DNA of 20,051 nt, from positions 1-20,051 of the IMG/VR virus record IMGVR_UViG_3300022707_001238; one strand, written 5' to 3'. Below the pieces are notes generated by a model that saw only the letters and a program-made list of their open reading frames with translations, did no database searches and was not told where the DNA came from. Below, piece by piece: positions 2-19,745 of the stretch. The DNA comes from a virus. The translations under genes and the position numbers were made by a program. Numbering within the stretch: the first letter of the stretch is position 1; each line of letters starts with the position of its first letter.

Positions 2-718
2 GAGTTACTCGTCGCTGCGGTTCCATTCAATGGTACGCTAGCGCAAACTGCGTTAGACGTTGCGGACGCTATCAACAATAACGTAACCGCGCCGAATTAT
101 CACGCGCGAGCCGTCAATGCGTTTATCTTTATCTGGCAACAAACAATTGTTGCTGGCCCCGTTACAATTGTTAGTAGTGTTACAACTATTACAACTAACG
201 ATACTAACATTGATAACGGTGTAATCGGAGACGGTACGCCGATCGGCTTTACTGAAGAAGGATTCGAGTTAGAAGTCAACGACGAATTCTTAGAGGAACC
301 GGTAGAAGAATCAGGAATAAGAAACGTCAAGGCTTTTTTCTTGAGTGAGAACGCAGAAATAACTGCGGTCTTCAAACAATGGGATACCGATGTATTAGAG
401 TTACGGTTTCCCGGTGGGCGTCATTCTACCGGTGCGGCTAACAGTAACGTAAACCGAATTGAATTAGGGGGGTTAGTGGCAGGTACAGATATGGACCCAT
501 TCTTCAAAGTGTTTGAGTTACGACCCGAAAACAAAAAGTACGCGATGATTCTAATACGTCGCGGATTAGCGATTGGTAACGCGGGGGAACCTATGCGGTT
601 CCGTACACAAGAAGTAAAAAAGATTGGCGTTACTCTGAAGATGTACAAAGACGAAAACCACGTAGCTACTACTTACCCGACAGCGGGGATTGACTTGGCC
701 CAAAACCTAGTCCTATAA
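2..718 (+). CDS. Probable major tail tube protein, 5' end cut by window edge
   Basis: The reading frame is open from the first complete codon (base 2) to TAA at 716-718, giving 238 visible residues with the N-terminus outside the window. An internal TTG at 341 is not needed as a start, because the upstream codons translate smoothly (visible N-terminal stretch LAQTALDVADAINNN, then a Thr/Val-rich stretch). The middle part (FTEEGFELEVNDEFLEEPV, around residues 83-101) resembles the strand-rich core of siphophage tail tube proteins. The position, just upstream of small chaperone/terminator-like genes and a tape-measure-like gene, fits. There is no decisive motif, so the function is inferred from fold-like pattern and gene order. 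Its stop codon is the first three bases of a TAACA-N3-TGTTA palindrome. Confidence 0.55.
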   Translation, partial: ELLVAAVPFNGTLAQTALDVADAINNNVTAPNYHARAVNAFIFIWQQTIVAGPVTIVSSVTTITTNDTNIDNGVIGDGTPIGFTEEGFELEVNDEFLEEPVEESGIRNVKAFFLSENAEITAVFKQWDTDVLELRFPGGRHSTGAANSNVNRIELGGLVAGTDMDPFFKVFELRPENKKYAMILIRRGLAIGNAGEPMRFRTQEVKKIGVTLKMYKDENHVATTYPTAGIDLAQNLVL

Positions 719-728
719 CAGAGTGTTA
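716..728. promoter_or_regulatory. Dispersed palindrome copy, exact arms, centre GAG
   Basis: TAACAGAGTGTTA fills the 12-nt gap between the tail tube gene and the next gene. It supplies the upstream TAA stop, and its central GAG may act as the ribosome binding site for the ATG at 731. Confidence 0.75.
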
Positions 729-730
729 CA

Positions 731-1126
731 ATGGCGCGACGTTCCAGCAAACAAGTAGATGAAGACATGCAAGACGAATTGATAGACAGTGTAGGTGACT
801 TACGCGAACTGTTTATCAATCGGCTAAATGCGGGGTTACCTGTTACCCTGAAAGAATGGGAAGAATTAGGTAACGCAGGAAAGGAAGTTTGGGAGCATTG
901 CTTGACAGAGTATCGGCTAAAGAATCACGCATTACAAGCACACTACTTAGCCGATAGTATGATGGGTGGAACCCTAGCAATTGAGACTGTATGGGATATT
1001 CTACCCGAAGAAGTACAGGATAAATTCCAGCGACATTGGAGTAAACTAAATGCCGAACAAGATAGACCTACTAATGAACGGACTAACAGTAAATCTACTC
1101 GCCGTGACTTTGCCAAACGGGAGTAG
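731..1126 (+). CDS. Small helical protein, possible tail assembly chaperone
   Basis: This encodes 131 residues, charged and mostly helical in character, with a polar C-terminal tail rich in Arg, Asn, Thr and Ser (from about residue 110). No family is recognised by motif. Its place between the tail tube gene and the tape-measure-like gene is where siphophages keep the tail assembly chaperone, and a segment near residue 38 (PVTLKEWEELG) fits the style of such proteins. The start ATG at 731 follows AGAG at 7 nt spacing, inside the palindrome. Its 3' end overlaps the next gene by 77 nt in a different frame. That could be a simple overlap or a site for a +1 ribosomal frameshift making a fusion, but I see no convincing slippery sequence. 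Confidence 0.6.
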   Translation: MARRSSKQVDEDMQDELIDSVGDLRELFINRLNAGLPVTLKEWEELGNAGKEVWEHCLTEYRLKNHALQAHYLADSMMGGTLAIETVWDILPEEVQDKFQRHWSKLNAEQDRPTNERTNSKSTRRDFAKRE

Positions 1127-1496: not shown

Positions 1497-1498
1497 AC

Positions 1499-3654: not shown

Positions 3655-5855
3655 TGGCTGGCATTCAAACTATACAATTGCCAGTTTCAACTAAGACGGC
3701 AATTCAAGGCGCTAATAAAGAACCGGGGGGCGCGTTCAAAATACGCAAGTCGCGTTGTTTGATTAGCGGTGTACCTATTGCGCAACGCGGACAATTTACA
3801 TGGGGGTATACTTCGGGCGTTGCTCCGCAACAAGAACGAATTAGTATTAGTGACTTGTACGCGGATGAAATGATAAAGCAGATCAACGCAAAGCGTGGCG
3901 CGGTTGACATTGAAATGGCAGGGGCGAATATAGAATTAGAAGAAACCGTACTAAACTTCAAAGGGCTAACATTATTACCCCGATTACCCGACGATCATAC
4001 ACACGACTTTATTACAATTTCAGATGATCGGTGGCGATGGCCTAATAAGAACGTATATAAGACTTATAACCTTGTACGTAAGGCTAATGACTTGTTTGTA
4101 TTTAGACAACTGACTGCGGTACAACGTCCAACCTTGCACGAAGCGAAACAGTATTATGTACAATGGACAATCAAACCAGACGACGAAGGAAATCCCGAAG
4201 CCCCTTGGACCGCGTTAGAAATTGTAATTGATATACTGGTAAACTTTTTAGGGTACGACGTAGAAAAAATACATACAAACAAAGCGCAAGAGTCAGAATA
4301 TATACCCGGTAACATTGTGTTAGTTGGTAACAAAGCGCATAGCGTAGTAAGCCGATTCTTGACTGAATCAAACAATAATCTTTACGTAGATGAAAACGGC
4401 GAAATACATATTTACGCCGAACGTATCCCATTTGGTCAACGTGAGTTTGACCAACAATTACGACCGTCATTACGTGGGCAAGTGTCCGGGGAATTGTACG
4501 TTGTTGATCGTAAAATGATTCGGCCTACTGATATTTACTTGTCATTAGAAAATGAGTTTGAAGTATTGCTAACGTATAAAGAGTTTGCAGTAACAGCAAC
4601 CGGTACAGAGCTACCCGCAACAACTAGCGAAGAAGCATTAGTACAGATTGCAAACCGACAAGTCTTTGTAGAGAATGTAACCCGCACGGTTATTGACAAC
4701 CAAGTCGGAACATTACCGCGCGGCACTGAAGTAACAATAGAAGCGGCGTTAGATGCATTCGGAAATAAGTACGGGTCCGAATCTATAACGTTTGACCAGT
4801 TTAGAGAATTCTTTGGTCTTGACGGGTCCGCAGTATTCAGTTCAGTTCTAACCGATCCAAACAATAATGTAGAGTTTGACGTTACCGCTATCAATTCATG
4901 GTCACAGATTGTACGTGACTATCGGACACGCTTTAGAATTCCGCAAGTAGTAATGCAATACTTGAAATCAGTAAAGAATACTTTAGTAGATATTATAAAC
5001 CCAGAAACGGGTAGACGTAAACCTAGCGAAGTGTTTAGTATTATTAGTTGGACTGTAAGTGTTGGCGCACGTATCAACGCGAAACGTTCTCAAGGTATTA
5101 CATTAGATAGCTTTACGAACTTATCAAAGGGCGGTAAGTTCCAGCCTACCGCATTACTGATAAGTGGAATTGACACAGACTTCGGAACGTATCAGGTGCA
5201 AGGACTTGACGACGTAAATCAACCGGGGTCGGTAACTAACATAATTCGCGGGCGTCCCGTTGACGATAGATTTTTCAATGATGGTTTCGGAGACGGTGAA
5301 ACAGAACTAGACCGTAACAGTATTTACGGGGCGTATGGATTGAAACCTGATTGGGAGTTGTCTGTGATTGTTAGTGTCACACTGTTACCGCGTGGCGAAG
5401 AAACAATGAATTGGGACAACCCCGACCCCCCTGATTTTATCAAGGCAGGACGTGGGCCACTTGTAGAAATACATATTCCATACGATACCGCGCGGTTTGC
5501 TTTGAATACTTCACAGACTCAAAAGTACAGAGAGATAACCGGGAAAGCGTTTGTCAATGAAGATATAGTTTTTGCTTTACGCGAACAAGAAAGCGCGAGA
5601 CGTTGGGTTACATTTACCGATCAGATACAAGGTAGTGTCGGGTTTGCATTGTCTGAAGAAGCTAAGACGCTACGCCCACAGGGGCCAGTTGTACAAGTGT
5701 TGTTTACTTTCAACGGGGCTACCGGTGCAATACGTACACAGTTTAGCGCGGCTCCAATTAGTGAAGGAAGGGATATTCAAAACTTATTGGAAGCTGATAT
5801 ATTAGAAGCAATCTTTAGGCAAGTACATTTCGACACAACCGTAGGTACAAGATGA
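3654..5855 (+). CDS. Large tail protein, possible baseplate hub / tail tip protein
   Basis: This encodes 733 residues, with ATG 3654 in a TAATG overlap with the previous gene. Residues about 186-255 combine a helix (ALEIVIDILVNFLG), a second helix (VVSRFLTESN) and the pair of strands LYVDENGEIHIYAE. This pattern is common in hub-type tail proteins, where a small domain reads 'nnlyvdenGeihi'. The N-terminal 110 residues are strand-rich and the C-terminal third is also strand-rich, ending in a short helix (about 711-722). No peptidase or lysozyme motif is seen. As the second large protein after the tape measure, a tail tip or hub role is likely but not proven. The stop overlaps the QueC-like start by four bases (ATGA). 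Confidence 0.6.
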   Translation: MAGIQTIQLPVSTKTAIQGANKEPGGAFKIRKSRCLISGVPIAQRGQFTWGYTSGVAPQQERISISDLYADEMIKQINAKRGAVDIEMAGANIELEETVLNFKGLTLLPRLPDDHTHDFITISDDRWRWPNKNVYKTYNLVRKANDLFVFRQLTAVQRPTLHEAKQYYVQWTIKPDDEGNPEAPWTALEIVIDILVNFLGYDVEKIHTNKAQESEYIPGNIVLVGNKAHSVVSRFLTESNNNLYVDENGEIHIYAERIPFGQREFDQQLRPSLRGQVSGELYVVDRKMIRPTDIYLSLENEFEVLLTYKEFAVTATGTELPATTSEEALVQIANRQVFVENVTRTVIDNQVGTLPRGTEVTIEAALDAFGNKYGSESITFDQFREFFGLDGSAVFSSVLTDPNNNVEFDVTAINSWSQIVRDYRTRFRIPQVVMQYLKSVKNTLVDIINPETGRRKPSEVFSIISWTVSVGARINAKRSQGITLDSFTNLSKGGKFQPTALLISGIDTDFGTYQVQGLDDVNQPGSVTNIIRGRPVDDRFFNDGFGDGETELDRNSIYGAYGLKPDWELSVIVSVTLLPRGEETMNWDNPDPPDFIKAGRGPLVEIHIPYDTARFALNTSQTQKYREITGKAFVNEDIVFALREQESARRWVTFTDQIQGSVGFALSEEAKTLRPQGPVVQVLFTFNGATGAIRTQFSAAPISEGRDIQNLLEADILEAIFRQVHFDTTVGTR
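4310..4322. repeat. Dispersed palindrome copy, exact arms, centre TTG
   Basis: TAACATTGTGTTA is inside the hub-like gene, read as N-I-V-L. The centre is unusual. Confidence 0.55.
5375..5387. repeat. Degenerate palindrome copy, two mismatches in left arm
   Basis: TGTCACACTGTTA keeps the common CAC centre and exact right arm but differs at two left-arm positions. It may be a weak or decaying copy. Confidence 0.35.
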
Positions 5856-6529
5856 AAACTGTGTTGATGTTTAGCGGTGGTCTGGATTCAGCGTGCGCCT
5901 ATCACGTATTAGATAAACCGCATTGTCTATATTGTGGGGGGCCAAACGGACCCGCCCGTATTGCTAACATAGGGGAAGCCCAAGCGTTGCGGTCAATGTT
6001 AGAACTTGACCCGGAGTTTGCATCACGCTTCAAAGCAAAAATGTTTGACTGGTCTGTATTTATGCGAGACGGTCAACACACTTTGCCCCGTGAAAATCTA
6101 TTAGCTATTAGCGCATGGGCAGAAGGAAGTAACACAGTGTTATATGCTTGGACACAAAACGATACACAATCGTTAGAGCGTATACAGCATATGAAAATGG
6201 TAACACGTAACGCGGTAGATATGCCGGGGTTTACTACTGACTTTCCAGTATGGAAGTTTTACCGGCACGAACTAATAATAGCCGCATTACGAAAAGGCGC
6301 ACACCCTTTATTCTTACATGCGTCATGGTCTTGCGTGCAACGTAACGATATACATTGCGGACAGTGTGTAAATTGTTGCGAGCGGTTTTTGTCAATGCGC
6401 TATGCGGCAATTGAAGATATAGATTATCTAACCAATCCGCAGAAGACCGGGGCTATGCAAACTTTGTTAGAACGTAACGCGGGTAATGATCGTTGGAGCG
6501 AACAACTAAATGCAAAATGTATACGATAA
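5852..6529 (+). CDS. queC: QueC-like 7-cyano-7-deazaguanine (preQ0) synthase
   Basis: This encodes 225 residues. QueC converts 7-carboxy-7-deazaguanine and ammonia to preQ0 using ATP. The N-terminus carries the PP-loop ATPase motif SGGLDS at residues 8-13. The TLPRENLLAISAW segment (77-89) corresponds to the P-x-R-N region of QueC. The C-terminus has the zinc ligands C161-x7-C169-x2-C172-x2-C175, close to the C-x8-C-x2-C-x2-C of bacterial QueC. It is divergent from cellular forms, with an extra Cys pair near 25-28. It overlaps the preceding gene by 4 nt and the next by 20 nt, so it belongs to the tail operon rather than being a loose insertion. In phages, preQ0 genes usually serve 7-deazaguanine DNA modification against restriction; the transferase (DpdA) and other pathway genes are not in this window, so that role is inference. 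Confidence 0.85.
   Translation: MKTVLMFSGGLDSACAYHVLDKPHCLYCGGPNGPARIANIGEAQALRSMLELDPEFASRFKAKMFDWSVFMRDGQHTLPRENLLAISAWAEGSNTVLYAWTQNDTQSLERIQHMKMVTRNAVDMPGFTTDFPVWKFYRHELIIAALRKGAHPLFLHASWSCVQRNDIHCGQCVNCCERFLSMRYAAIEDIDYLTNPQKTGAMQTLLERNAGNDRWSEQLNAKCIR
6130..6142. repeat. Dispersed palindrome copy, exact arms, centre CAG
   Basis: TAACACAGTGTTA is inside the queC-like gene, read as N-T-V-L. Confidence 0.7.
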
Positions 6530-9359
6530 AATAAAAGACTTCGCAATGATTCTAGCCGACCATGATACGGCTATGGCGGAGCGGTTCCGTGGACTAATGC
6601 GCGGCGTGGTTATTACTGGAACGGATGCAAACAATAAACCAATTTTCAGTAAGATTCCATACATACTGCGTAGTATGGTTTACGTTGACCCGGATACTAA
6701 CGTGTCCGATCATGGTACATTTTCAATGGCGCTACCGGTCATTGTAGAAAAAGACGGTAACATATTGTTTCTTAGAGTATTACAACAAGCGGAAACCCCC
6801 GACCCGAAACTATTACGCATTGAAGATTGGGAGTTACCCGAAGGCGGACAAGACGGGGTAGCGTCCGGTCAAGGTGGTGTGCTAGTTGTTGGTACAGAGA
6901 TTGACGAAAACAAAAAGATATTTATTCCCGGTGGTAAGTTTCAGATTGTGTCTGACCATCGGGGAAGTGATCCTACAACCGGGTCTACAATTGTTAGTGA
7001 CTTGACTGTAGACGACGAAATAGGATTGCAAGCATTATTGGCAAAAGCGTTTTGGGTTGTCAATACACCCACAAGAGTAGACGCAAAAACTCGTAACGTA
7101 ATTGCGTTGAATAGTTATAGTGCGGGGGCACGTAGCGGGCGACACGTCGAACATCAAGGCGGGGCAATTGTTCTTTACAATAGTAATATCCGTAGTGCGG
7201 TTGGAGGCGATACTCCAAAGGTTGTTTCGTGGTCGGCATGGACAGACGACGGACCATACTTTGAAGGGGAAGGTGCAAGAGACGCACACCTAAAAGGAAT
7301 TGACGCAGAAGGCGTACCACACTTACCTCTAATGTATCGTAAAGAACGGACTAAGTTTGGTCCGGGTCCGCTGCGTACACCTAGCGCCCCGTTTGATTTC
7401 TTGGAACAGTTTGCAGTAACTCCAAGATTTAGTACCCGTATCTTTCGTGCAGAAATTGTGTACGACAAAAAATTGTTTCATCCTAACCCGTCCGGTATTG
7501 TTGACCCGGTTATCGGTCGTTGGGTTGTAGAGTATCGTTTACCGCACCAGCCCCCGTTTGACGAAACACAGGTAAAGGATACTGAAGATACACAAAAGAA
7601 AGATACGAATGTAAAGACTCCGCACGAACCACAAAGAAAATCGGAGTCACAAGAGAAAGAAGAAACACAACAAAAAGACCCGCGTGATCCAATAACGCCT
7701 GAACCTAACCCGCGCAATCCGGGACCAATAACAGGTGATCCGCCCGCAAAGCCGGGGCCAAACGATAGTGGCGGGGGTCCGGGTACTTGTGGAATACCGG
7801 GGGAACCGCCAGTAGCACCGGGTCCGGGAGAGAATCCAGACGGACCCGGAAAAGAAGCGGGGCCAGCCGATCAACCTACCGGACCTATTACACAAGATTC
7901 ACAAGAGAAAAAACAAGCCGCGCTAAAGAAAGCAAAAGAAGCAGCTAACGCTAGAGCAAATGGCATAGACGAAGTAACTAACTTTCCCGAAGACCAAACT
8001 AATACTTTGGGCGGTGACTCTATTGACACACTGTTACAAGAGTTAGAGCTACACGGACAGTCACAACAACAACGCAAGCCCTTGCATAGTCATATGCAAG
8101 TAGGCTACCCGTCGTTTGTTGCAATAGTACCCAACCCGGAAGACTTAGGATTGACACAACGCGGAGACTTGACTCCCGACGAAATAGCGCGTGTAGATAA
8201 GTGGAATTTTGGATCAACACAGATTGCGGCGTTTGGTAATATAATCAAACCAGCTGTAAAAGTCCGTATAGACAATGACCGTAACACTGTGTTAGGTGGT
8301 TTCGTAATAGCCGGTTCTGACTTGCAAGACATTTACGAAGGCGCGGTGTCTAATCTAACTGCGGTACTTGCGTTACGTCCCGAAGCAGAAATAGCTTTTG
8401 GCGAACCTATACGCGGCGGTGGAATTGAAAGCCCTGTGCGATTCTTAGACGACCGGGTAGCCGGAGAGTTTTGCATAGTACGCCGTAACGACGTAAGCGG
8501 AGACGTTGCAGACCTGGACTATCCTATACACTTCAAGTCTCCATTACGCTTGACGAATGTTATAACCGTTGAACGTGAAGCAATGCTACCCGCTAACGGG
8601 GTGTTAGCTTTTGACTCCGATGAAGGCGAAGTGTTCGTCGGGCAAGACGCAGCGTTTACTAGAATCAGCGGTGACGCACATATACAAGAACGCTTCCATA
8701 CAAAAACTGATTTTGTAAATGCCGTAATTGGAGCCAGTCCAGTCTTTGGGGATTTACGGGCGATAGCTGCATCCGGTGGGTTTGTATCTAGTGCATCTGG
8801 TGTAACCAAACTAAACGCCCCCGGAATCATTGGACTAAATACGGGGGCAACTTCAGCGGCGGGACGTGTATTCTTATTGAGTAACACAATCTCTGGTTTT
8901 CTTATGGGGATTGAACAGCCTTTCCGTTGTTACAACTTTATCAAGACTCCCGCAATACTAGGTACAGTAGCAGAAAGTTATGTAGTGCGTGCGGGTGTGT
9001 CTAGTGTCGGTCTACCTAACTCTCTAATCACTGCAATTACTTTTGAATACCAGCACGACGAAAACGGCGGACGTTGGCAAGGTGTTATCAATGATGTTGG
9101 AGAAACGTCCGTTGACTTAGGTATTACAATTGTAGTAAGCACCGCGTACAAGTTAGTGTTTGTAGTCAACGCAGCAGGCACCAGTGTAGATTTCTTCATT
9201 GACGGAATCTTGCGCGGGACCGCAGCAGTTGCAGCAGACATTCCAGGGGGCGGGGGTTTCAATCACTTTTATAATACTCATATTATGAAATTGAACGGGA
9301 TCGCAAACCGTGCGCTTTACGTGGACGCAATGGAAATTGACTCAAAGGTGAGAAGATAA
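6510..9359 (+). CDS. Tail fibre / receptor-binding-like protein with lectin-type C-terminus
   Basis: This encodes 949 residues. ATG 6510 is 11 nt after GGAG and lies inside the end of queC (20 nt overlap). The N-terminal ~350 residues form a mixed strand-rich domain, presumably tail-attached. Residues about 350-470 are a low-complexity linker: first Lys/Glu/Gln/Thr-rich (355-390), then Pro/Gly-rich with collagen-like spacing (390-460), then a short Lys/Ala helix. Residues about 525-740 form a second strand-rich region. The C-terminal ~185 residues (from about 765) look like a concanavalin/laminin-G type jelly roll, with a segment reading YKLVFVVNAAGTSVDFFIDG typical of such folds. The modular layout and position at the end of the tail operon support an adhesin. 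It contains palindrome copies at 6758, 8024, 8282 and possibly 8594. It ends in TAATG overlap with the next gene. Confidence 0.65.
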   Translation: MQNVYDKIKDFAMILADHDTAMAERFRGLMRGVVITGTDANNKPIFSKIPYILRSMVYVDPDTNVSDHGTFSMALPVIVEKDGNILFLRVLQQAETPDPKLLRIEDWELPEGGQDGVASGQGGVLVVGTEIDENKKIFIPGGKFQIVSDHRGSDPTTGSTIVSDLTVDDEIGLQALLAKAFWVVNTPTRVDAKTRNVIALNSYSAGARSGRHVEHQGGAIVLYNSNIRSAVGGDTPKVVSWSAWTDDGPYFEGEGARDAHLKGIDAEGVPHLPLMYRKERTKFGPGPLRTPSAPFDFLEQFAVTPRFSTRIFRAEIVYDKKLFHPNPSGIVDPVIGRWVVEYRLPHQPPFDETQVKDTEDTQKKDTNVKTPHEPQRKSESQEKEETQQKDPRDPITPEPNPRNPGPITGDPPAKPGPNDSGGGPGTCGIPGEPPVAPGPGENPDGPGKEAGPADQPTGPITQDSQEKKQAALKKAKEAANARANGIDEVTNFPEDQTNTLGGDSIDTLLQELELHGQSQQQRKPLHSHMQVGYPSFVAIVPNPEDLGLTQRGDLTPDEIARVDKWNFGSTQIAAFGNIIKPAVKVRIDNDRNTVLGGFVIAGSDLQDIYEGAVSNLTAVLALRPEAEIAFGEPIRGGGIESPVRFLDDRVAGEFCIVRRNDVSGDVADLDYPIHFKSPLRLTNVITVEREAMLPANGVLAFDSDEGEVFVGQDAAFTRISGDAHIQERFHTKTDFVNAVIGASPVFGDLRAIAASGGFVSSASGVTKLNAPGIIGLNTGATSAAGRVFLLSNTISGFLMGIEQPFRCYNFIKTPAILGTVAESYVVRAGVSSVGLPNSLITAITFEYQHDENGGRWQGVINDVGETSVDLGITIVVSTAYKLVFVVNAAGTSVDFFIDGILRGTAAVAADIPGGGGFNHFYNTHIMKLNGIANRALYVDAMEIDSKVRR
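6758..6770. repeat. Possible dispersed palindrome copy, one arm mismatch, centre TAT
   Basis: TAACATATTGTTT is read as N-I-L-F. The centre is atypical, and one such single-mismatch copy is expected by chance in the window. Confidence 0.35.
8024..8036. repeat. Dispersed palindrome copy, one arm mismatch, centre CAC
   Basis: TGACACACTGTTA is inside the fibre gene, read as D-T-L-L, in the region after the Pro/Gly linker. Confidence 0.6.
8282..8294. repeat. Dispersed palindrome copy, exact arms, centre CTG
   Basis: TAACACTGTGTTA is inside the fibre gene, read as N-T-V-L. Confidence 0.7.
8594..8606. repeat. Possible dispersed palindrome copy, one arm mismatch, centre GGG
   Basis: TAACGGGGTGTTA is read as N-G-V-L in the usual phase, but its centre is unlike the others, so chance is possible. 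Confidence 0.35.
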
Positions 9360-9917: not shown

Positions 9918-10421
9918 ATGAAGATTCTAACAGTGTGTTTTGTGTGTTTGTTTTTATTGTCAAGTTGTAGTATGTTTGACGGACTATTGCAACGAATGCA
10001 AGTAGCCGAAGACAACTTGAATAAATCACAAAACGAATTGGACGACGCACGAAAAGAGTTTGACGCCAAACAAGCAGACGTTGACGCGCGGCAAACCGAA
10101 CTTGAAAATGCAATTGCAATTGGAGATTTAGAAACTGCTAAGTTGTTATCGGTGCAAGTCTCCGCAGCAAGAGCCGATGCGAAAGAAGCAAACGATAGGG
10201 TCAAAGAAGCAGAGAAAGACTTTGACCAGTTAGGCGACTTAGCTAATGCGGCAAAGTACGAGTACGATAATTCCACTAACACTTGGGATTACATTTCTGG
10301 AATCATTGTATTACTCGGGGGTTTCTTTGGTGTCGGTGGTATCGTCAAGGGTGTTACTGAAAGACAACGCCGAAAGATTGCAGAAGAAAATCAATTGAAC
10401 CCTAGACCGAATACAAGCTAG
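9918..10421 (+). CDS. Lipoprotein with C-terminal membrane anchor, probable unimolecular spanin
   Basis: This encodes 167 residues. The N-terminus is a lipoprotein signal peptide: charged start, hydrophobic core and lipobox L14-S15-S16-C17, with Ser at +2, which favours outer membrane sorting. Residues about 28-115 are a heptad-rich charged coiled coil. Residues about 125-146 (YISGIIVLLGGFFGVGGIVKG) form a transmembrane helix followed by a basic tail (ERQRRK). One protein anchored in both membranes is the architecture of u-spanins such as T1 gp11, which fuse inner and outer membranes at the end of lysis. The known example has a less helical periplasmic domain, so this is inference from topology. 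GGAG at 9905 gives the ribosome site. The 3' end overlaps the convergent primase gene by 20 nt. Confidence 0.7.
   Translation: MKILTVCFVCLFLLSSCSMFDGLLQRMQVAEDNLNKSQNELDDARKEFDAKQADVDARQTELENAIAIGDLETAKLLSVQVSAARADAKEANDRVKEAEKDFDQLGDLANAAKYEYDNSTNTWDYISGIIVLLGGFFGVGGIVKGVTERQRRKIAEENQLNPRPNTS
9928..9940. repeat. Dispersed palindrome copy, one arm mismatch, centre GTG
   Basis: TAACAGTGTGTTT lies in codons 4-8 of the spanin-like gene, just after its start, in a different codon phase from most in-gene copies. Confidence 0.6.
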
Positions 10422-12447: not shown

Positions 12448-14459
12448 AACGCAACCTTTTCTCTGTCATTCCAATGCGAGCGAACTAAATCCACTTCGCA
12501 CGGTATATCTATATTTAGGTGTCCGGTGTGGTCTTCCATGCAAGAAACAATACGACGCAGTATAGGTTTGTATGACCGCATGTTTTTAGCAGGGGCAGTA
12601 AATCCTAGTTCGTCGTGTACTTGCCCAAGTAAACGAAACGGCGTATTAGGTAACACACTGTTATCTAACTCGCGCATACGATCTTTTACTAACGCGGCTT
12701 CAGTTCCCTGCACAATATAGTTTACTCCGCGATATTCAAAGCCGGGGTCTATATGTATCTTATCACCGTAAGCCGTTAGAATGTATCCGTGTTGTGTAGC
12801 ATAGGCTTGTATTTCACGGGACCATGCGCCAATGCGGGGCATAGCTTTACCATACTGCAATAAGTTTTGTCGGGCTTCGGGTATCGTACAACGCATACCC
12901 TTAGCAGCTTTGCCGGGACCACCCCCAAACAACTTTAGAAAGAACATTGTTTTAGCTTTAGCATACGCAGACGCAGATTCAATACATTTCTCCGCGTCAA
13001 TAATGTCAAAGTCATTTTCTTCTAACAATGCAATTGCAACCCCTGCCCAATCTTCATCTTCTAATAGTCGTAACACTCTGTTAGACATACACCAATCGCG
13101 TACTGCTTCCCGGTTACGTTCCAAGCGTACCGCGTCAATCATTATACGTAGCCCCGGTTTATTATCTTGACCGGACCATATCATACGTGCGGCGGCGGCG
13201 TGCGGTTTGATTCCATTAGCTAGCGCGTCTAACATTGTTTCATCGCGTGCTAAGTCTGCAAAGATACGAACTTGTAACCCGCTGTAATCTACCATATACC
13301 ATACTTGACCGTCACGGGGTCCGATACATTGACGGGCGGACATATTAGATTTAGACTTACCTGCATCCGGTATGGTTTGTATGGGTGGTCGCTTTGCAGA
13401 AAACCGAAACGTCTTTGCGCCCGCTTGATCGAAATGCGGATACATTATTAGTTCTTTGCCTTCGCGCACGCTAAAGCGTTCAAACGGATTTAGAAACTTA
13501 CTGATACATCCTTCTGCGTCTCGTAGGTCAAGAATCAATCCGGCTATTTCGTGGTCTAACCTTTCTAAATGGTCACGGTCAACGCTACGGCTACCGTCTT
13601 CAGATTGTAGCCCTAAGTCGTCATAAACAATACCAGCAAACACAGTGTTAGTAAACTTCAATGGGGGTACGTCTGCCCACAATGAAATTTCACGGCGATA
13701 CTTTACTATGTCTGCTTCTAATGCGGTGCGGGTTTCATTGATCTTGTCGGGGTGTACTCGCCAGCCTACACGCATCATACGAATAACAATTGGCATAAGT
13801 AACATTTCACGTTCGTACCCCGCACGTTCAATGTCGCCCATTACTTCGCGCATCAATTGGTGTAGCATCATGCAACGCACCGCGTCCAATCGGCAATACT
13901 TTCCGCATAGTTTATCTGCGTCCGGGGGTAATCGGTCTGCATACATTGCGGGATGATGTTTTTTGATAGCGCGCGGTAACCAATAATCTTGTGCTACCTT
14001 TTCACCTAAGTTCCAACCAAGTTTGCGACCAATGACTCGACACTTTTTTACTATGTCTTTCAATTCCTTTTCGTCGTCGTTGTCCATATTCAGATAGGCT
14101 TTAGCTAAAGGCTTCAAGCCATACTGATAAAGGTTTGTCCGTGCGCGTTTCACTTCTATTAGTGTGTCGTGATATGGTTCGGCTACGTGTATATTCCAAG
14201 CCGATACACCTAAAATATCGTAAGGCGTATTGTGTGCTACTTTTTCACGCTTACGAGATTCAAGCACACGACGCATAAACGCTATGTCTTTCTTGATGGG
14301 TTGTGGCTTACGAGTAAAGGGGTCAACGTCCCATTCTGTGTACCACGTTTCTAAGTCTTCATTAGCAAACGAAAACCCAAACGGACTATCAATATGGGGA
14401 ACGTCTAACCCCGTCCCTTCCGTATCGAATGACACACTGTTACCGGGTTTCCAAGTCAT
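12444..14459 (-). CDS. Family A DNA polymerase with 3'-5' exonuclease domain
   Basis: This encodes 671 residues and is the replicative polymerase. The exonuclease domain has Exo I D12-x-E14 (FDTEGTGLD), Exo II HNTPYD at 76-81 and Exo III Y188-CRL-D192. The polymerase domain has TFRFSAKRPPIQTIP at 350-364 (the TGR-S region), motif A DYSGLQVR at 391-398, motif B around K503 (KTMFFLKLFGG), and motif C VHDE at 614-617. Oddities by manual alignment: the steric-gate Glu of motif A is Gln 396; the motif B Arg four residues before the Lys is Tyr 499; and the later Tyr is Phe 511. About 60 extra residues separate motifs A and B. It overlaps its neighbours by ATGA on both sides, so it is coupled to the DUF7352-like gene and the primase. 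Confidence 0.92.
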   Translation of the reverse strand: MTWKPGNSVSFDTEGTGLDVPHIDSPFGFSFANEDLETWYTEWDVDPFTRKPQPIKKDIAFMRRVLESRKREKVAHNTPYDILGVSAWNIHVAEPYHDTLIEVKRARTNLYQYGLKPLAKAYLNMDNDDEKELKDIVKKCRVIGRKLGWNLGEKVAQDYWLPRAIKKHHPAMYADRLPPDADKLCGKYCRLDAVRCMMLHQLMREVMGDIERAGYEREMLLMPIVIRMMRVGWRVHPDKINETRTALEADIVKYRREISLWADVPPLKFTNTVFAGIVYDDLGLQSEDGSRSVDRDHLERLDHEIAGLILDLRDAEGCISKFLNPFERFSVREGKELIMYPHFDQAGAKTFRFSAKRPPIQTIPDAGKSKSNMSARQCIGPRDGQVWYMVDYSGLQVRIFADLARDETMLDALANGIKPHAAAARMIWSGQDNKPGLRIMIDAVRLERNREAVRDWCMSNRVLRLLEDEDWAGVAIALLEENDFDIIDAEKCIESASAYAKAKTMFFLKLFGGGPGKAAKGMRCTIPEARQNLLQYGKAMPRIGAWSREIQAYATQHGYILTAYGDKIHIDPGFEYRGVNYIVQGTEAALVKDRMRELDNSVLPNTPFRLLGQVHDELGFTAPAKNMRSYKPILRRIVSCMEDHTGHLNIDIPCEVDLVRSHWNDREKVAL
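12651..12663. repeat. Dispersed palindrome copy, exact arms, centre CAC
   Basis: TAACACACTGTTA is inside the polymerase gene, read on the - strand as N-S-V-L. Confidence 0.75.
13071..13083. repeat. Dispersed palindrome copy, exact arms, centre CTC
   Basis: TAACACTCTGTTA lies in the part of the polymerase gene coding the insertion between motifs A and B, read on the - strand as N-R-V-L. Confidence 0.65.
13638..13650. repeat. Dispersed palindrome copy, one arm mismatch, centre CAG
   Basis: AAACACAGTGTTA is inside the polymerase gene, read on the - strand as N-T-V-F. Confidence 0.6.
14430..14442. repeat. Dispersed palindrome copy, one arm mismatch, centre CAC
   Basis: TGACACACTGTTA lies in codons 6-10 of the polymerase, just after its start, read on the - strand as N-S-V-S. 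Confidence 0.6.
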
Positions 14460-14746: not shown

Positions 14747-14759
14747 AAACAGTGTGTTA
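14747..14759. promoter_or_regulatory. Intergenic palindrome copy, one arm mismatch, centre GTG
   Basis: On the - strand this is TAACACACTGTTT. Its TAA is the stop of the upstream gene (end 14757), and GGAG for the next start (14734) follows directly. The gap is 22 nt. Confidence 0.75.
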
Positions 14760-15074
14760 GGCGCAAGGGATTTCTACACGGGGCGAAGGGGGTGGGGGCT
14801 TATACCGTTCGTCCGGGTCAGCGTAAAGTTCTGTAATCCACTCTGCTATCTTTTGTATGTGTTTGGTTGGAATATAATGTGTGCGTGAATTCTCTTCATC
14901 TGTATGACACACACACGGAAAATAAAACCTTTCACTATCAGGGTCGTATCTTGCAAGAATCATGCTACTAGCTTTCAATTCAAAATTTTTCAAGGCAAAA
15001 TTGCGAGCCTTAGTGTCACGCATCTGCGATTCTATGCGTAACTCTTTGTGCAATTCAATCTTATTCATTTGCAT
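14757..15074 (-). CDS. Hypothetical 105-aa protein
   Basis: ATG 15074 follows TGGAG in a 24-nt gap containing an exact palindrome copy. The N-terminal 25 residues are a charged helix (NKIELHKELRIESQMRD). The middle has strands with FYFPCVCHTDEENSRTHYIP and a following helix (IQKIAEWITELYADP), and the tail is Pro-rich (KPPPPSP). No family recognised. The context is the accessory part of the replication block, between the zinc-finger/DUF6378-like gene and the DUF7352-like gene. Confidence 0.65.
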   Translation of the reverse strand: MQMNKIELHKELRIESQMRDTKARNFALKNFELKASSMILARYDPDSERFYFPCVCHTDEENSRTHYIPTKHIQKIAEWITELYADPDERYKPPPPSPRVEIPCA

Positions 15075-15088: not shown

Positions 15089-15101
15089 TAACAGTGTGTT
15101 A
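15089..15101. promoter_or_regulatory. Intergenic palindrome copy, exact arms, centre GTG
   Basis: On the - strand this is TAACACACTGTTA. Its TAA is the stop of the gene ending at 15099, and GGAG plus ATG 15074 follow. The gap is 24 nt. Confidence 0.85.
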
Positions 15102-15719
15102 GATTCCAGACTGCGGCGGCTTGTCGGTTTTCAATTCGTGACGGAATCTTTCTTCTTCCATTGTATATTGATCGGGGTTACGTTCACGGCGTATATCGCG
15201 GTAACATAACACGTAACCAACCAAGTCTACAAGCGTATCGTAATGGTCGGGAGACTTCAATAGTCGCGCAAGTTTTACGCATATCATATCAAGTGCAACG
15301 GATTCCGCCGTGCGTTTCATACCTGAAACAATGGTTTGAATTGCGGCAATGTCCGTAAAGTTTTTGAGTTTGTTTCCGTACTCTTTTTCGCGTGCGCCCC
15401 GTACTTTGTGGTGTGCTTCCTGCAATAGTAAGTCAATAGCTTCAATTGAAATAAGAGTTGCAGGAACAAAACCATCAAGAAAATCAAACATTTCTTTTTC
15501 AGTAGGTTCGTCTTCCCTATGTTTCCACCGACCATAACGATTTCCCAAGCGCATAACTTCACTCCAAAGATCAGGTTTGCTTTGTTTCAATTCTCCGCCG
15601 ATACTTGGACGCTTTTTACAAACCGCTCGCGCCATACCATGATCGAAGTAACAATTATATATCGTAAGGTATTCCCCGCATTTTTGACAACGTTCCGCTT
15701 CGGCTCCAGACGTAGACAT
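15099..15719 (-). CDS. Zinc-finger protein with DUF6378-like domain
   Basis: This encodes 206 residues. I place the start at ATG 15719 (MSTSGAEAER) rather than ATG 15779, because GGAG lies 7-8 nt upstream and because the longer form would run back through the palindrome and the end of the MazG-like gene. The N-terminus has C11-x2-C14, then C23, H27 and C34, probably a small zinc site. The C-terminal part (about 108-175) reads R-x2-EYG, then NF-x2-IA, then VALDMICVKLARL, then D-x2-VDLVGY. This is the pattern I associate with DUF6378, a phage family of unknown activity that resembles all-alpha NTP-pyrophosphohydrolases. A nucleotide-related role is inference, supported by the adjacent MazG-like gene. 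Confidence 0.65.
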   Translation of the reverse strand: MSTSGAEAERCQKCGEYLTIYNCYFDHGMARAVCKKRPSIGGELKQSKPDLWSEVMRLGNRYGRWKHREDEPTEKEMFDFLDGFVPATLISIEAIDLLLQEAHHKVRGAREKEYGNKLKNFTDIAAIQTIVSGMKRTAESVALDMICVKLARLLKSPDHYDTLVDLVGYVLCYRDIRRERNPDQYTMEEERFRHELKTDKPPQSGI

Positions 15720-15731: not shown

Positions 15732-15744
15732 TAACAGTGTGTTA
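15732..15744. promoter_or_regulatory. Intergenic palindrome copy, exact arms, centre GTG
   Basis: On the - strand this is TAACACACTGTTA. Its TAA is the stop of the MazG-like gene (end 15742), and CGGAG plus ATG 15719 follow. The gap is 22 nt. Confidence 0.85.
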
Positions 15745-16101
15745 GAATTGTTTGCCGTGCTTGTGCGGGCGGTTAGCATTGAATCCCATTTTGACTAGGA
15801 TTGCATCACCTAACCGTAAATTGAACTCACTACAAAAATCCATAATACGAATAACAGTATCCGCCATTTCTTCTTCTAGCCCGCTGAAGTCGGGGATATG
15901 TTCAGAGGGCGGATTGCCTTTCCGCATAGCTTCTAAGCCTTCCGACAATTCGCTATGCATTAGTGCAATTAGTTCGCCTTGATTTCTAGGCGATAAAGTA
16001 GTCTTTGTACGAAACCCTTTACTAATAACAGTTATAGCAATTTCATCCTGTACCGCTTGCATGGAGTTTACAAACTCTGATTTTTGGGTTGGTGATAACA
16101 C
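15742..16101 (-). CDS. MazG-like nucleotide pyrophosphohydrolase
   Basis: This encodes 119 residues. The all-alpha NTP-pyrophosphatase metal site is visible: E51-LS-E54 (HSELSE) and E78-MA-D81 (EEEMAD), followed by the ending MGFNANRPHKHGKQF typical of short phage MazG-like proteins. Such enzymes hydrolyse (d)NTPs to monophosphates; in phages they may adjust nucleotide pools or alarmone levels. I choose GTG 16101 because GGAG lies 8 nt upstream. That GTG falls inside a palindrome copy (16096-16108), so anything bound there would cover the translation start region. The stop TAA is itself the first three bases of the next palindrome copy. Confidence 0.82.
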   Translation of the reverse strand: MLSPTQKSEFVNSMQAVQDEIAITVISKGFRTKTTLSPRNQGELIALMHSELSEGLEAMRKGNPPSEHIPDFSGLEEEMADTVIRIMDFCSEFNLRLGDAILVKMGFNANRPHKHGKQF

Positions 16102-16108
16102 AGTGTTT
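16096..16108. promoter_or_regulatory. Palindrome copy overlapping the MazG-like start codon
   Basis: TAACACAGTGTTT on the + strand has one arm mismatch and centre CAG. The GTG start of the MazG-like gene is inside it, and GGAG is just upstream. Confidence 0.65.
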
Positions 16109-16115: not shown

Positions 16116-16295
16116 TTATAGAAAGCGCACGCCTCTTGCTCTATCTGCGGCAATTCTCTTAGCAGCATGGCGCAATCTTTTTTCGTCTAGTAAGAGTGTA
16201 GGTTTAGTATTCCATAGCTTGCGAATATCCATAACAGACATTCCTTCTTCTGTTAGAACCTTAGTGAATTCTTCTTTAGTCAAGGGATTCTCCAT
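16116..16295 (-). CDS. Hypothetical 59-aa protein
   Basis: ATG 16295 overlaps the stop of the preceding small gene as TAATG; the frame ends at TAA 16116-16118. The peptide begins MENPLTKEEFTKVLTEEG and has a second basic helix (LRHAAKRIAADRARG). It is small, soluble and basic at the C-terminus. No family recognised. The overlap with its neighbour and the following GGAG-GTG of the MazG-like gene, 14 nt after its end, argue that it is a real gene in the operon. It might bind nucleic acid, but only the basic helix hints at that. Confidence 0.55.
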   Translation of the reverse strand: MENPLTKEEFTKVLTEEGMSVMDIRKLWNTKPTLLLDEKRLRHAAKRIAADRARGVRFL

Positions 16296-16468
16296 TAGAA
16301 GCGTTTGGCATCTGCCCTAACTCTTAGAGCAAGTTCGCGGTTCAAGTCTCGTAGCATAACTAGAGTGTATGTTTTGTACGCGGGTCGCCTACGTATTACA
16401 TAGTCACACGCGGCGGCTAAAGATTCAAGTTGGTTTGCTAAACGTAATAGTGTGAGTCGATCTTTCAT
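16295..16468 (-). CDS. Hypothetical 57-aa basic protein
   Basis: The ATG at 16468 is preceded in frame by a TAA, so this is the only start in the frame; the ribosome site is weak (GGGTAAG). The protein (MKDRLTLLRLANQLESLAAA at its start) is helical and Arg-rich (RRRP near 26-29, ending RVRADAKRF). Its stop overlaps the next start as TAATG. It begins only 13 nt after the T-run of a strong terminator, so its expression needs readthrough or translation from a longer RNA. No family recognised. Confidence 0.5.
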   Translation of the reverse strand: MKDRLTLLRLANQLESLAAACDYVIRRRPAYKTYTLVMLRDLNRELALRVRADAKRF

Positions 16469-16481
16469 GGCTTACCCGCAG

Positions 16482-16510
16482 AAAAAAAGGGGGGCCGTTG
16501 CCGACCCCCC
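16482..16510 (-). terminator. Strong intrinsic terminator for leftward transcription
   Basis: Read on the - strand: GGGGGGTCG, loop GCAA, CGGCCCCCC, then seven T. That is a 9-bp stem with one T-G wobble, a GNRA-type tetraloop and a U-run, a textbook Rho-independent terminator. It lies after the SSB-like gene and before two small genes, splitting the leftward block into a recombination half and a replication half. The region 16469-16557 otherwise holds only the hairpin described next. Confidence 0.85.
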
Positions 16511-16515
16511 AATTG

Positions 16516-16541
16516 TTACACGCCTATATGGTCGTGTATAA
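16516..16541. other. Imperfect hairpin upstream of the terminator
   Basis: ACACGCC (16518-16524) and GGTCGTGT (16530-16537) can pair with one bulged T around a TATAT loop, with TTA/TAA flanks. In the leftward RNA this would be a second stem just before the terminator. It could protect the 3' end of the upstream message or be a weak operator. Confidence 0.35.
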
Positions 16542-16557
16542 CTTCGTCTCTCCAGTT

Positions 16558-17034: not shown

Positions 17035-17048
17035 AATACTTACTCCCC

Positions 17049-17061
17049 TAACAGTGTGTTA
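17049..17061. promoter_or_regulatory. Intergenic palindrome copy, exact arms, centre GTG
   Basis: On the - strand this is TAACACACTGTTA. Its TAA is the stop of the Sak4-like gene (end 17059), and GGGGAG plus ATG 17034 follow. The gap is 24 nt. Confidence 0.85.
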
Positions 17062-17817
17062 CCGTTTCTTGCCCCGCCCCTTGGCGGAACCCATAGCAGT
17101 AACTAGATTATTGTATGCTTGTTTCGGTGTCTTACCCATGTTTACTAACTCAATATCTTTGAAGAAACCTGCTTCCTTCATACGACAGCCACCGGTAATG
17201 TTACGTGTACCTACAATCTGTAACGTGCGGGCGTCGTCTTCGTCGTAATGGTAGTATCCTAGTAAGTCTACCATTGGTTCGATAATACCGCGAGCAACTC
17301 CAGACATAGACGGTTGCACGGTTTCAATCTTTCTACCGTCCGCCTTTTCTTCTTCACGTACTGCTTCATGCGATATAAATATAACCCCCTTTTCAAGTTT
17401 GCATAATTGCGATACGCGACGTTGGAACTCGTCTTTCAAACGATCCCAACCTTTACCAAACGATTCGTCTGCGGGGTGATTACCCCCTAGTACATTTTTA
17501 CAAACCCAATCCAGACAGTACCGATACATAATGTCTACGGTGTCTATAACAATGGTTTCAAAGCGGTCGGATTGTTTCTCACCTAATTGTTTTAGTAACA
17601 GTTTGAACTCTGCCCAATCGTTAACCGGTACTTGATAAATCTCTAACGCTTTACCCCCCGGTTCAAACATAAGGAATATGGCGTTAGGGAATTGCGCGGC
17701 TAGTGTTGTCTTCCCGATCTTTTCCCGACCGTAGAAAGATAACGTATAGTCGCCTAACTTTTGGTGCGCCTTGCTTTTCTTTTTAGGTAGTATGATTGCG
17801 CGGTTTATCTGTGCCAT
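17059..17817 (-). CDS. Sak4-like RecA-family ATPase
   Basis: This encodes 252 residues. Walker A is GREKIGKTT at 30-38, Walker B is TIVID at 88-92 within FETIVIDTVD, and a conserved strand with VIFISHEA follows near 145-152. This is the AAA_24/Sak4 layout: a RecA core without the extra RecA domains. Such phage proteins support annealing or strand exchange with an SSB partner, which is encoded immediately downstream. The C-terminus is basic (SAKGRGKKR). The start ATG 17817 follows AGGA at about 8 nt and lies 35 nt inside the end of the zinc-ribbon gene. The stop TAA is the start of a palindrome copy. Confidence 0.85.
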   Translation of the reverse strand: MAQINRAIILPKKKSKAHQKLGDYTLSFYGREKIGKTTLAAQFPNAIFLMFEPGGKALEIYQVPVNDWAEFKLLLKQLGEKQSDRFETIVIDTVDIMYRYCLDWVCKNVLGGNHPADESFGKGWDRLKDEFQRRVSQLCKLEKGVIFISHEAVREEEKADGRKIETVQPSMSGVARGIIEPMVDLLGYYHYDEDDARTLQIVGTRNITGGCRMKEAGFFKDIELVNMGKTPKQAYNNLVTAMGSAKGRGKKR

Positions 17818-18022
17818 GATTATTTCCTATTCTTACATTCCAAGCGATTACCGCGTCAAACTCTGTCAGAGTATGTTTGCCAATCGCAAAAACCCAATTA
17901 GGTCCGCAAGCCTTACAGTTAGGGCATTGCACTTGTATAAAGATTACCGACCGTTTGAACCATGATCCCCGTTCAAAGTCTTTACATTCGTGGGCGCAAA
18001 ATACGCATGGATAAATGTCCAT
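17783..18022 (-). CDS. Lar-like zinc-ribbon protein (restriction-alleviation type)
   Basis: This encodes 79 residues from ATG 18022 (MDIYPC). I prefer this to ATG 18061 because AGGC lies 6 nt upstream and the longer form would read back through the palindrome and the stop of the nuclease gene. Cys pairs C6-x2-C9 and C33-x2-C36 form a zinc ribbon, and the ending DAVIAWNVR matches the e-A-i-x-x-W-N-x-R tail of Lar-family proteins. Lar of the Rac prophage modulates type I restriction-modification, but most relatives are untested, so function is inference. The C-terminal 35 nt overlap the Sak4-like start. Confidence 0.65.
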   Translation of the reverse strand: MDIYPCVFCAHECKDFERGSWFKRSVIFIQVQCPNCKACGPNWVFAIGKHTLTEFDAVIAWNVRIGNNHGTDKPRNHTT

Positions 18023-18034
18023 GGCTAGCCTTTC

Positions 18035-18047
18035 TAACAGTGTGTTA
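18035..18047. promoter_or_regulatory. Intergenic palindrome copy, exact arms, centre GTG
   Basis: On the - strand this is TAACACACTGTTA. Its TAA is the stop of the nuclease gene (end 18045), and AAGGC plus ATG 18022 follow. The gap is 22 nt. Confidence 0.85.
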
Positions 18048-19028
18048 CACCAATTCTTCAAAGGGTACGTCGCGGCGTTTCAATCCGCTAGAATCGCCAT
18101 TGTAACATATACCTAATAGCGAACATTGTCCGTAAGGGCCTAGACAATGGGGACTAAACCGATCTAGAGATTCGCCCTTGTCAAACAAAACGAATTCGGC
18201 AATTTCTTTTAGTATACCTTTCAAAACCTTTTCAAACTTGACTTCTTGTACTTTGCTAATTGGCGCACGTAACCGGGTAAAGTATTCCGCGCCCCGCTTA
18301 CGCACGTCTGCATCTACACGGGCGGTATGTTTAGGTAATGATTCGGATACGGATAAGCGTAATTGCGGGCGACGTATTAGATTATATATAACGCCCCCAT
18401 AGCGTTGATCTTTACCGGTTCGCTCTTGGTTTGCAGCCCACGAATATAAGTTGACTTGAAAATCGTTTGACAGTGTGTTATTGATTCCACCCATATTGAC
18501 ACGGGATTTTGTTTTGTGTTCCATAACCATAAGGTTAGATTTTTTAGACTTGGCCCGTCTTTCGCTTACCAGTCCGTCACGCTTACCGGTTACAGGTATT
18601 GTTACTTTTTGTCCGTCAAACAAACGCACTGTTACAGGTACTTTGAAAACACCTTCGACGCTAATCCAGTTTAGTTTTTTATCGTCTTCTTCGTACCATT
18701 TACAATACGGGGGGAAGATTCCGTAACACTGTGCTACAATAAATTCCCATGCTTGCCGACGATCACGGGGCCAAGAGTCAACCTTTAGTTTTGTCTCTTG
18801 TTGCTCTACAACTACCCTAGCAATACCATCGGGCGCACCTTTCAAGTCACCGCTATAGTAGGCGTCCATACATTCGTGAAACAAAATACCAAACAATATA
18901 GCTTCAGATAAATGTTCTTCCGACCAACCGCGTATTAGAGAAAAATAAAACTTACGCTTACATTCTAGGAACTTCAAAATCTGCGTTTGCGTCACACCGT
19001 CTTTGAATAAATCCCATTTATAATTCAT
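18045..19028 (-). CDS. PD-(D/E)XK nuclease, Cas4/RecB-like, with probable Fe-S cluster
   Basis: This encodes 327 residues. The nuclease core is visible: a helix with H51 (FGILFHECMDAY), the catalytic D151 (GKRDGLV), E170-H-K172 (MVMEHKTKS) and the QVNLYSW motif at 191-197. One Cys near the N-terminus (C23) and three near the C-terminus (C295, C302, C308 in GQCSLLGIC) match the split 4Fe-4S arrangement of Cas4 and AddB. It is therefore probably an exonuclease that makes single-stranded ends for the Sak4/SSB pair encoded downstream. No cas1/cas2 or CRISPR repeats are present, so a CRISPR role is unlikely. ATG 19028 follows GAGGGA at about 9 nt and overlaps the preceding gene by 11 nt. Confidence 0.85.
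   Translation of the reverse strand: MNYKWDLFKDGVTQTQILKFLECKRKFYFSLIRGWSEEHLSEAILFGILFHECMDAYYSGDLKGAPDGIARVVVEQQETKLKVDSWPRDRRQAWEFIVAQCYGIFPPYCKWYEEDDKKLNWISVEGVFKVPVTVRLFDGQKVTIPVTGKRDGLVSERRAKSKKSNLMVMEHKTKSRVNMGGINNTLSNDFQVNLYSWAANQERTGKDQRYGGVIYNLIRRPQLRLSVSESLPKHTARVDADVRKRGAEYFTRLRAPISKVQEVKFEKVLKGILKEIAEFVLFDKGESLDRFSPHCLGPYGQCSLLGICYNGDSSGLKRRDVPFEELV
18468..18480. repeat. Dispersed palindrome copy, one arm mismatch, centre GTG
   Basis: TGACAGTGTGTTA is inside the nuclease gene, read on the - strand as N-T-L-S. Confidence 0.6.
18622..18634. repeat. Degenerate palindrome copy, two mismatches
   Basis: AAACGCACTGTTA keeps the CAC centre and the right arm. It may be a weak copy or chance. 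Confidence 0.25.
18724..18736. repeat. Dispersed palindrome copy, one arm mismatch, centre CTG
   Basis: TAACACTGTGCTA is inside the nuclease gene, read on the - strand as V-A-Q-C-Y. The codon phase differs from most copies. Confidence 0.55.
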
Positions 19029-19248
19029 TGGTCGGTCCCTCTAATAGTTCAATCAAGTCAATTTCAGTGTGGGTAAATCCTACTAGCATATGATTACCCG
19101 CACCACGAAACACTATTCCTTCTGCTCGAATTTCGTGAATACAAAAGCCAAGTAAAATATAAGTACCCCCGTCCGTTTGGCTAGTATAGACACGCAGTAT
19201 AGCTTGTGAGTCTTTCCATGCTTGCCAAGTACGCACAAAGGGGCGCAT
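19018..19248 (-). CDS. Hypothetical 76-aa protein
   Basis: ATG 19248 overlaps the stop of the resolvase gene (TAATG), and the 3' end overlaps the nuclease start by 11 nt, so it is embedded in the operon. The protein starts with a basic helix (VRTWQAWKDSQAILRVY), continues with strands (GGTYILLGFCIHEI, EGIVFRG) and ends with an acidic helix (TEIDLIELLEG). No family recognised. Placement between a resolvase and a nuclease suggests an accessory role in DNA processing, without direct evidence. Confidence 0.6.
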   Translation of the reverse strand: MRPFVRTWQAWKDSQAILRVYTSQTDGGTYILLGFCIHEIRAEGIVFRGAGNHMLVGFTHTEIDLIELLEGPTNEL

Positions 19249-19745
19249 TACTTACGGTGACGAATACACACACCGCCCCTAATATATCCTTTATGGTATA
19301 GCCCAATGCCAACCGCGTCTAATACGTTGTGGTCTTTAGCTTGAAGATCAGGTAACAATAAACGAATAACCTTTTCGGTTTCTTCTTTCTTTTTACGCCC
19401 CTTCCATCGGGCGGGTAACACTGTGTTAGTTGTGCAACCGTAGTCAATGCAGACACGCATAATAGCGCCCGCAATCATTGCCAGCTTTACGAGGTTGCCA
19501 GACGCAGCAGCGGCTATACCTACTCTACTCCGCAGAAAAAGGGGCTGTTCTATTATAGCGTCTTTGGGCTTGTACTTGTATAGTAGGTTTTCTAGCCGGT
19601 CGCATATATAGTTCATACGTTGCGACCAAACTAATTTAGGGTCGGGTTGTAACAAGTGTGTATATAATGGTTCGATTTTTTGGGGTGTCCACAAAGCTAC
19701 CCCTGTACCCCTAACGCCGGGGTCTATCGAAATTAGAGTTATCAT
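19248..19745 (-). CDS. RuvC-like Holliday junction resolvase
   Basis: This encodes 165 residues. RNase H-fold nuclease residues are visible: D8 in SIDPGVRGTG, E66 in AIIEQP, and H139/D143 in DHNVLDAVGIGLY. The length is close to cellular RuvC (about 170). It would cut branched DNA produced by recombination or replication before packaging, consistent with the Sak4, SSB and exonuclease genes downstream. The start is two bases after the stop of the HTH gene. One exact palindrome copy lies inside (19416-19428), encoding N-T-V-L. Confidence 0.85.
   Translation of the reverse strand: MITLISIDPGVRGTGVALWTPQKIEPLYTHLLQPDPKLVWSQRMNYICDRLENLLYKYKPKDAIIEQPLFLRSRVGIAAAASGNLVKLAMIAGAIMRVCIDYGCTTNTVLPARWKGRKKKEETEKVIRLLLPDLQAKDHNVLDAVGIGLYHKGYIRGGVCIRHRK
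19416..19428. repeat. Dispersed palindrome copy, exact arms, centre CTG
   Basis: TAACACTGTGTTA is inside the resolvase gene, read on the - strand as N-T-V-L. Confidence 0.7.

Follow-up and report, generated by a model that had tools for sequence, protein, structure and literature searches.

Palindromic 13-bp sites repeated through a phage genome fragment form a dispersed operator-like array of variant form

The closest described counterparts of the sites considered here are the stoperators of cluster A mycobacteriophages (L5, Bxb1), together with the MabJ prophages (PMC9283540, PMC6550527, PMC9934374); cluster A repressors halt elongation at many such sites (PMC9283540). Other repeated phage sites include SPBRE of the Bacillus phage SPbeta, a 15-bp site served by one master repressor, MrpR (PMC10516654), and the ~16–21 repeat copies of the T1-like phages TLS and Stevie, for which a repressor is not established and whose function is unknown, although the authors compare them with stoperators (PMC11447400, PMC4319613). 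Cyanophages A-1 and N-1 have 43 and 21 dispersed copies, respectively, of motifs put forward as possible stoperators (PMC4916379). Here we describe a 13-bp palindrome, TAACA-N3-TGTTA, that is repeated throughout the virus record IMGVR_UViG_3300022707_001238, a genome fragment whose entire 20,051 bases were analysed and are referred to below as the window. The sites are best called a dispersed phage operator array of variant form, and we infer its function and its binder from the features set out below.

The array is real and very strong, and chance, codon usage and RNA folding do not explain it. There are fourteen copies with both arms exact and thirteen with one arm mismatch, and an earlier sequence-only reading of the window had placed all 27 correctly. 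In 100 dinucleotide shuffles the mean number of sites with ≤1 mismatch is 1.34, and 27 is never reached. When gapped palindromes (5-base arms, gaps of 0–10) are scanned without bias, TAACA with a gap of three comes first, with 14 observed and 0.14 expected, and the next independent palindrome has two copies, with none having more. The sequence-only reading had put the expectation at 0.02–0.04 copies, which holds for uniform composition but becomes 0.14 with the real arm frequencies; the conclusion is unaffected. A weight matrix of 15 positions (18.3 bits of information) brings the total to 29 sites, all scoring at least 11.9 bits, with the next-best sequence at 7.1 bits. The two sites added by the matrix are weaker and had not been listed before: TGTCACACTGTTA at 5375–5387 (two mismatches, 12.8 bits) and AAACGCACTGTTA at 18622–18634 (14.9 bits). 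The consensus is S-TAACA-S-W-S-TGTTA-S, with S-W-S (C/G, A/T, C/G) at its centre and predominantly G or C on the outer flank; the motif letters were not found in the literature searched. Sites occupy both gene blocks at a density of ~1.4 per kb, and the distance between them is under-dispersed (mean 668 bp, coefficient of variation (CV) 0.59, P 0.0014). Helical phasing of the sites was rejected (R 0.04). Because the first and last sites lie ~0.6–0.7 kb from the fragment ends, the array probably extends beyond the fragment.

The two blocks differ in gene content. The rightward block has structural-type genes and a QueC-like gene, and the leftward block encodes a primase, a PolA-like polymerase, DUF6378, MazG-like, SSB-like, Sak4-like, Lar-like, PD-(D/E)XK and RuvC-like proteins, and a small helix-turn-helix (HTH) protein. 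Twenty-two of the 29 sites are wholly coding, with 17 in codon frame 2, four in frame 1 and one in frame 0, a bias that arises in part because a frame-0 site would make a stop codon. In the rightward block the coding sites begin with TAACACACTGTTA at 1319–1331, TAACACACTGTTT at 2802–2814 (one mismatch), TAACAGACTGTTA at 2901–2913 and TAACATTGTGTTA at 4310–4322, all four in frame 2. They are followed, beyond the weaker site at 5375, by TAACACAGTGTTA at 6130–6142 within the QueC-like gene, TAACATATTGTTT at 6758–6770 (the weakest of all, 11.9 bits), TGACACACTGTTA at 8024–8036, TAACACTGTGTTA at 8282–8294, TAACGGGGTGTTA at 8594–8606 and TAACAGTGTGTTT at 9928–9940, the last lying 10 nucleotides (nt) inside the coding sequence (CDS) 9918–10421. 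The primase gene has TAACAGTGTGTCA at its 3′ end at a convergent junction (10429–10441), TAACACACTGTTT at 10923–10935 and TAACACACTGTTA at 11816–11828; this last site is in frame 1 and encodes VTVCY, where a relative has VRIVC. Four sites are in the DNA polymerase gene: TAACACACTGTTA at 12651–12663, TAACACTCTGTTA at 13071–13083 in an insertion that the relative is without, AAACACAGTGTTA at 13638–13650, and TGACACACTGTTA at 14430–14442, 17 nt past the start codon. Further along are TGACAGTGTGTTA at 18468–18480, the weaker site at 18622, TAACACTGTGCTA at 18724–18736, and TAACACTGTGTTA at 19416–19428 in the RuvC-like gene.

The remaining seven sites occupy all seven of the intergenic gaps of 12–59 nt (0.32 expected). 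In six of these the TAA of the site is the stop codon of the upstream gene, and the start of the next gene comes after it. One example is TAACAGAGTGTTA at 716–728, which ends CDS 341–718 and is followed by an ATG at 731. The others, all in the leftward block, end CDS 14757–15074 (site 14747–14759, followed by CGGAG and an ATG at 14734), CDS 15099–15719 (15089–15101), the MazG-like CDS 15742–16101 (15732–15744), the Sak4-like CDS 17059–17817 (17049–17061) and the PD-(D/E)XK CDS 18045–19028 (18035–18047). At leftward-block junctions the site is also followed by a purine-rich stretch of ribosome-binding type, and the seventh junction site (16096–16108) includes the GTG with which the MazG-like gene begins. 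We note that the downstream flanks at 14747, 15089 and 15732 share GGAG-N-R-TTG-YY-ATG, as though a cassette of site and ribosome site had spread by copying from junction to junction.

Selection acts at the DNA level. Synonymous-codon shuffles within genes reduce the exact sites to 0.185 (at most 2 in any of 200 shuffles), versus 10 observed in CDS (9 with refined gene starts), so the shuffled-codon control that the sequence-only reading had proposed does not give similar counts and does not refute the motif. All nine peptide windows able to encode an exact site are spelled as the site. The peptide that hosts frame-2 sites occurs eight times versus 1.2 in residue-shuffled proteins, a ~7-fold excess; in relatives host peptides number 0–0.74 per 6000 amino acids, and the residues at sites are not conserved in one of these (G028, described below). 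The proteins thus appear to have been bent to accommodate the sites.

The likeness to cluster A stoperators that the sequence-only reading had drawn stands in general terms: the core is ~13 bp, there are more than 20 copies (29 in the 20-kb window), both arms and short gene junctions are occupied, and replication genes are leftward and structural genes rightward. It does not extend to the details when Bxb1 serves as a control. Scanning with what we take to be the Bxb1 stoperator consensus found 33 sites at ≤1 mismatch, a number that supports the consensus; these are asymmetric, mostly intergenic and, with few exceptions, oriented alike relative to transcription. The window sites have 10–12 self-complementary positions out of 13 versus 4 in Bxb1, whereas cluster A sites are asymmetric and monomer-bound. 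They are mainly coding (22/29 versus 6/33), whereas cluster A sites are mainly in short intergenic regions. Their orientation is mixed rather than near-uniform, and their spacing is more even (CV 0.59 versus 1.11). The sense-strand centre is of CAC type at 10 sites and of GTG/GAG type at 8 or more, with five junction sites concordant, and a rule of orientation with transcription was tested and rejected. Membership in the cluster A stoperator family is therefore rejected, the sites being palindromic, mostly coding and of mixed orientation.

Other known arrangements were also compared. Clustered operators of the lambdoid or P22 type, few in number and at divergent early promoters by a repressor gene, were rejected, as the 29 sites are dispersed and none is within 100 bp upstream of the HTH gene. 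Phage promoter elements were also rejected: sigma-70-like hexamer matches are not above shuffles (29 versus 36.5) and most sites are inside genes. The phiC31 repressor likewise has many palindromic operators, its conserved inverted repeats, although these are 17 bp long and mainly in the early region. SPBRE is similarly a repeated phage site, but it is found in the promoter regions of about ten genes, whereas the window sites are packed more densely, lie mostly in coding sequence and have no connection with promoters. The T1-like repeats differ in being 21–22 bp long, asymmetric, intergenic and oriented with transcription, and the cyanophage A-1 and N-1 motifs in being asymmetric and typically between open reading frames (ORFs). 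Outside phages, the matS/MatP system of Escherichia coli also repeats a 13-bp target along a region for an organising protein (PMC3330122), although it is chromosomal and its density is ~50-fold lower.

No near relative was found by megablast of the window, by tblastn of six of its proteins in phages, or by single-protein and degenerate-pattern scans of the viral_contigs and genome_contigs collections. More distant relatives that share the window's order of replication genes (G028, G027 and G029) were recovered with a degenerate Sak4 pattern, and another (G005) through a MazG search. G028 (23.6 kb) has a primase with 32% identity over 625 amino acids as well as RuvC, PD-(D/E)XK, Sak4, SSB-like and polymerase genes; G027, G029 and G005 are 50.0, 55.6 and 44.7 kb, respectively. 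The array is in none of the four, which have 0–3 matrix matches above 8 bits per genome versus 29, and we therefore regard it, from the genomes compared, as specific to the lineage of the window among those sampled. The sequence-only reading had named absence from the rest of the genome and all relatives as a sign against the motif, and it is indeed absent from these distant ones, the collections searched having yielded no near one. In viral_contigs, motif scans picked up only chance sites, single or in pairs, and in genome_contigs isolated matches, with ≤2 exact sites in any 8-kb locus, in both cases among the matches listed. Eighty MazG-bearing viral loci (1.18 Mb) contain no exact sites and 23 one-mismatch sites.

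Elsewhere, tandem repeats, tRNA-like genes or simple repeats accounted for apparent rival arrays. An apparent array in G028 is pentapeptide-repeat DNA; at the start of this genome (L348:1–341) a 15-bp unit is repeated in tandem ~22 times and apparently encodes pentapeptide repeats. An apparent array in another genome, G021, consists of palindromes that are more often intergenic or at gene starts. A second dispersed palindrome, TGTAACGTTACA, is present in 15 copies in an unrelated phage with a 3825-amino-acid ORF (L051, IMGVR_UViG_3300017777_003723, 66,751 bp); six of the 15 are exact, a reversed control gives none, and many are close to gene starts. In IMGVR_UViG_3300020045_001610 (L071), five exact copies of TTAAC-W-GTTAA and near matches lie within ~4.5 kb (~56.8–61.2 kb), a group looking like a local operator cluster.

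What might bind the sites? Because the site is palindromic with symmetric arms, we infer a dimeric binder; such a protein had already been proposed by the sequence-only reading, and the symmetric arms, together with independence from codon choice and RNA folding, support the proposal well. It is most likely phage-encoded, and would be either a 66-amino-acid HTH protein of Cro/CI type (19748–19948, minus strand) or the product of a gene outside the view. The former is the only HTH protein among the window genes searched and matches HTH_3 (E 0.0044), the phrog_4 transcriptional repressor (E 3.2e-7) and P22 C2 repressor (E 0.13); its AlphaFold model has a pLDDT of 50, too poor to use. HTH_3 proteins are present both in the window and in G029, which is without the array. 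An L5-type repressor (HTH plus stoperator domain, 155–183 amino acids) was not seen in the 20-kb fragment, just the 66-amino-acid HTH protein.

The reading that we prefer, and hold with evenly balanced confidence, is a dispersed operator array of one homodimeric DNA-binding protein that damps transcription elongation genome-wide and is functionally stoperator-like. Across both gene blocks the dimer would be bound at ~1.4 sites per kb, and in the repressed state, which may be lysogenic, pseudolysogenic or a pre-late phase, polymerases would run into repeated roadblocks, reinforced by loops between neighbouring dimers, and would be lost at gene junctions. Where the site contains the stop codon, the trailing ribosome would depart at the point where RNA polymerase meets the bound dimer. 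Interference with elongation seems more likely than with initiation because the sites are inside genes and at junctions and show no link to promoters. A single dimer of lambda CI or Cro is a weak roadblock, and looping strengthens CI (PMC10310618), so an evenly spaced array could work through many weak, loopable blocks.

Several points weigh against this elongation-damping array. No array site is present in the 100 bp visible upstream of the HTH gene, and the 66-amino-acid protein, no more than a candidate binder, is without an oligomerisation domain for loops. The orientation of the sites is mixed, unlike Bxb1, and the sequence would look much alike whether the sites served silencing, partition or DNA organisation. 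Kinship lends no support to a lysogenic role, since a Pfam search found neither a tyrosine integrase nor a serine recombinase in the window or the four relatives; such a role is still compatible with the data because cluster A phages can be extrachromosomal prophages.

The strongest competitor, which we consider rather unlikely, is an architectural array in which a protein that bridges or condenses DNA, by logic like that of MatP/matS or ParB, would organise, segregate or package the phage genome and would hardly affect transcription directly. The even spacing, the occupation of both blocks, the mostly intragenic placement and the absence of an orientation rule would suit it, as would the size of the matS target, also 13 bp with 23 copies in 800 kb (PMC3330122), and the absence of integrase from the relatives makes a lytic-cycle role natural. 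Against this, the sites are far denser than matS, no MatP or ParB homologue was found among the window proteins searched, and the use of every short junction, with six sites replacing a stop codon, suggests a link to gene boundaries even though free space explains it. We think it improbable that the sites (TAACASWSTGTTA) are operators of a host regulator that the replicating phage titrates or borrows. The phage binder is a candidate only, and phages benefit from regulators already in the cell, but titration needs neither regular spacing nor use of gene junctions, and the genome_contigs matches listed are the isolated ones noted above.

Equally improbable is a role along the genome as a binding site for a protein of replication initiation, recombination or nuclease protection. 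The window does have RuvC-like, Sak4-like, PD-(D/E)XK and PolA-like genes, yet these are conserved in G027, G028 and G029, all without sites; moreover, Chi-like sites are asymmetric and initiator iterons cluster, which the window sites do not. An element acting in RNA, as messenger RNA hairpins or protein sites near ribosome-binding sites, is very improbable. Seven sites adjoin start codons, but the hairpin would comprise five A/T-rich pairs around a loop of 3 nt, and of six sites tested just one has a better fold than shuffled sequence (z −3.1), the rest scoring about −1 to +0.9. In addition, 22 of the 29 sites are intragenic, and arm mismatches are not preferentially G-U. We give practically no credence to an artefact of chance, codon usage or peptide composition. 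Frame-2 sites do encode common residues (N-T/S-L/V-L), but the codon and residue shuffles refute this explanation, intergenic sites exist too, and the relatives are without the array.

Three further features of the window lie among the sites. A strong intrinsic terminator at 16489–16510 (minus strand; nine pairs, eight of them G-C, with a T7 tail) divides the leftward block, with the SSB-like gene on one side and ORF 16295–16468 on the other. It lies in the sole intergenic gap of more than 60 nt in the window, and this gap is without a site. The QueC-like gene (5852–6529, plus strand; phrog_1550 E 6.8e-11, Pfam QueC E 3.3e-7), which is amid the structural-type block, suggests deazaguanine DNA modification or queuosine salvage; no DpdA-type gene was noticed in the window. 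At 17783–18019 (minus strand) is a Lar-like restriction-alleviation protein (Pfam PF14354, E 5.2e-6, just under the cut-off).

It is possible, though doubtful, that the array represents a previously undescribed system of genome-wide control or organisation, in which a dimer uses palindromic, near-regularly spaced sites that are embedded in coding sequence at the expense of amino-acid changes and that also provide stop codons, the phage clade having no integrase. Genome-wide operator arrays with proven silencing are known from few phage groups. A palindromic, gene-embedded array would show that such systems need not rely on the unusual L5-type monomer but can be based on a dimer, and that protein sequences throughout a phage genome can be bent by selection for DNA sites. 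It would also make the roadblock question testable, as the array looks built for many weak, loopable sites.

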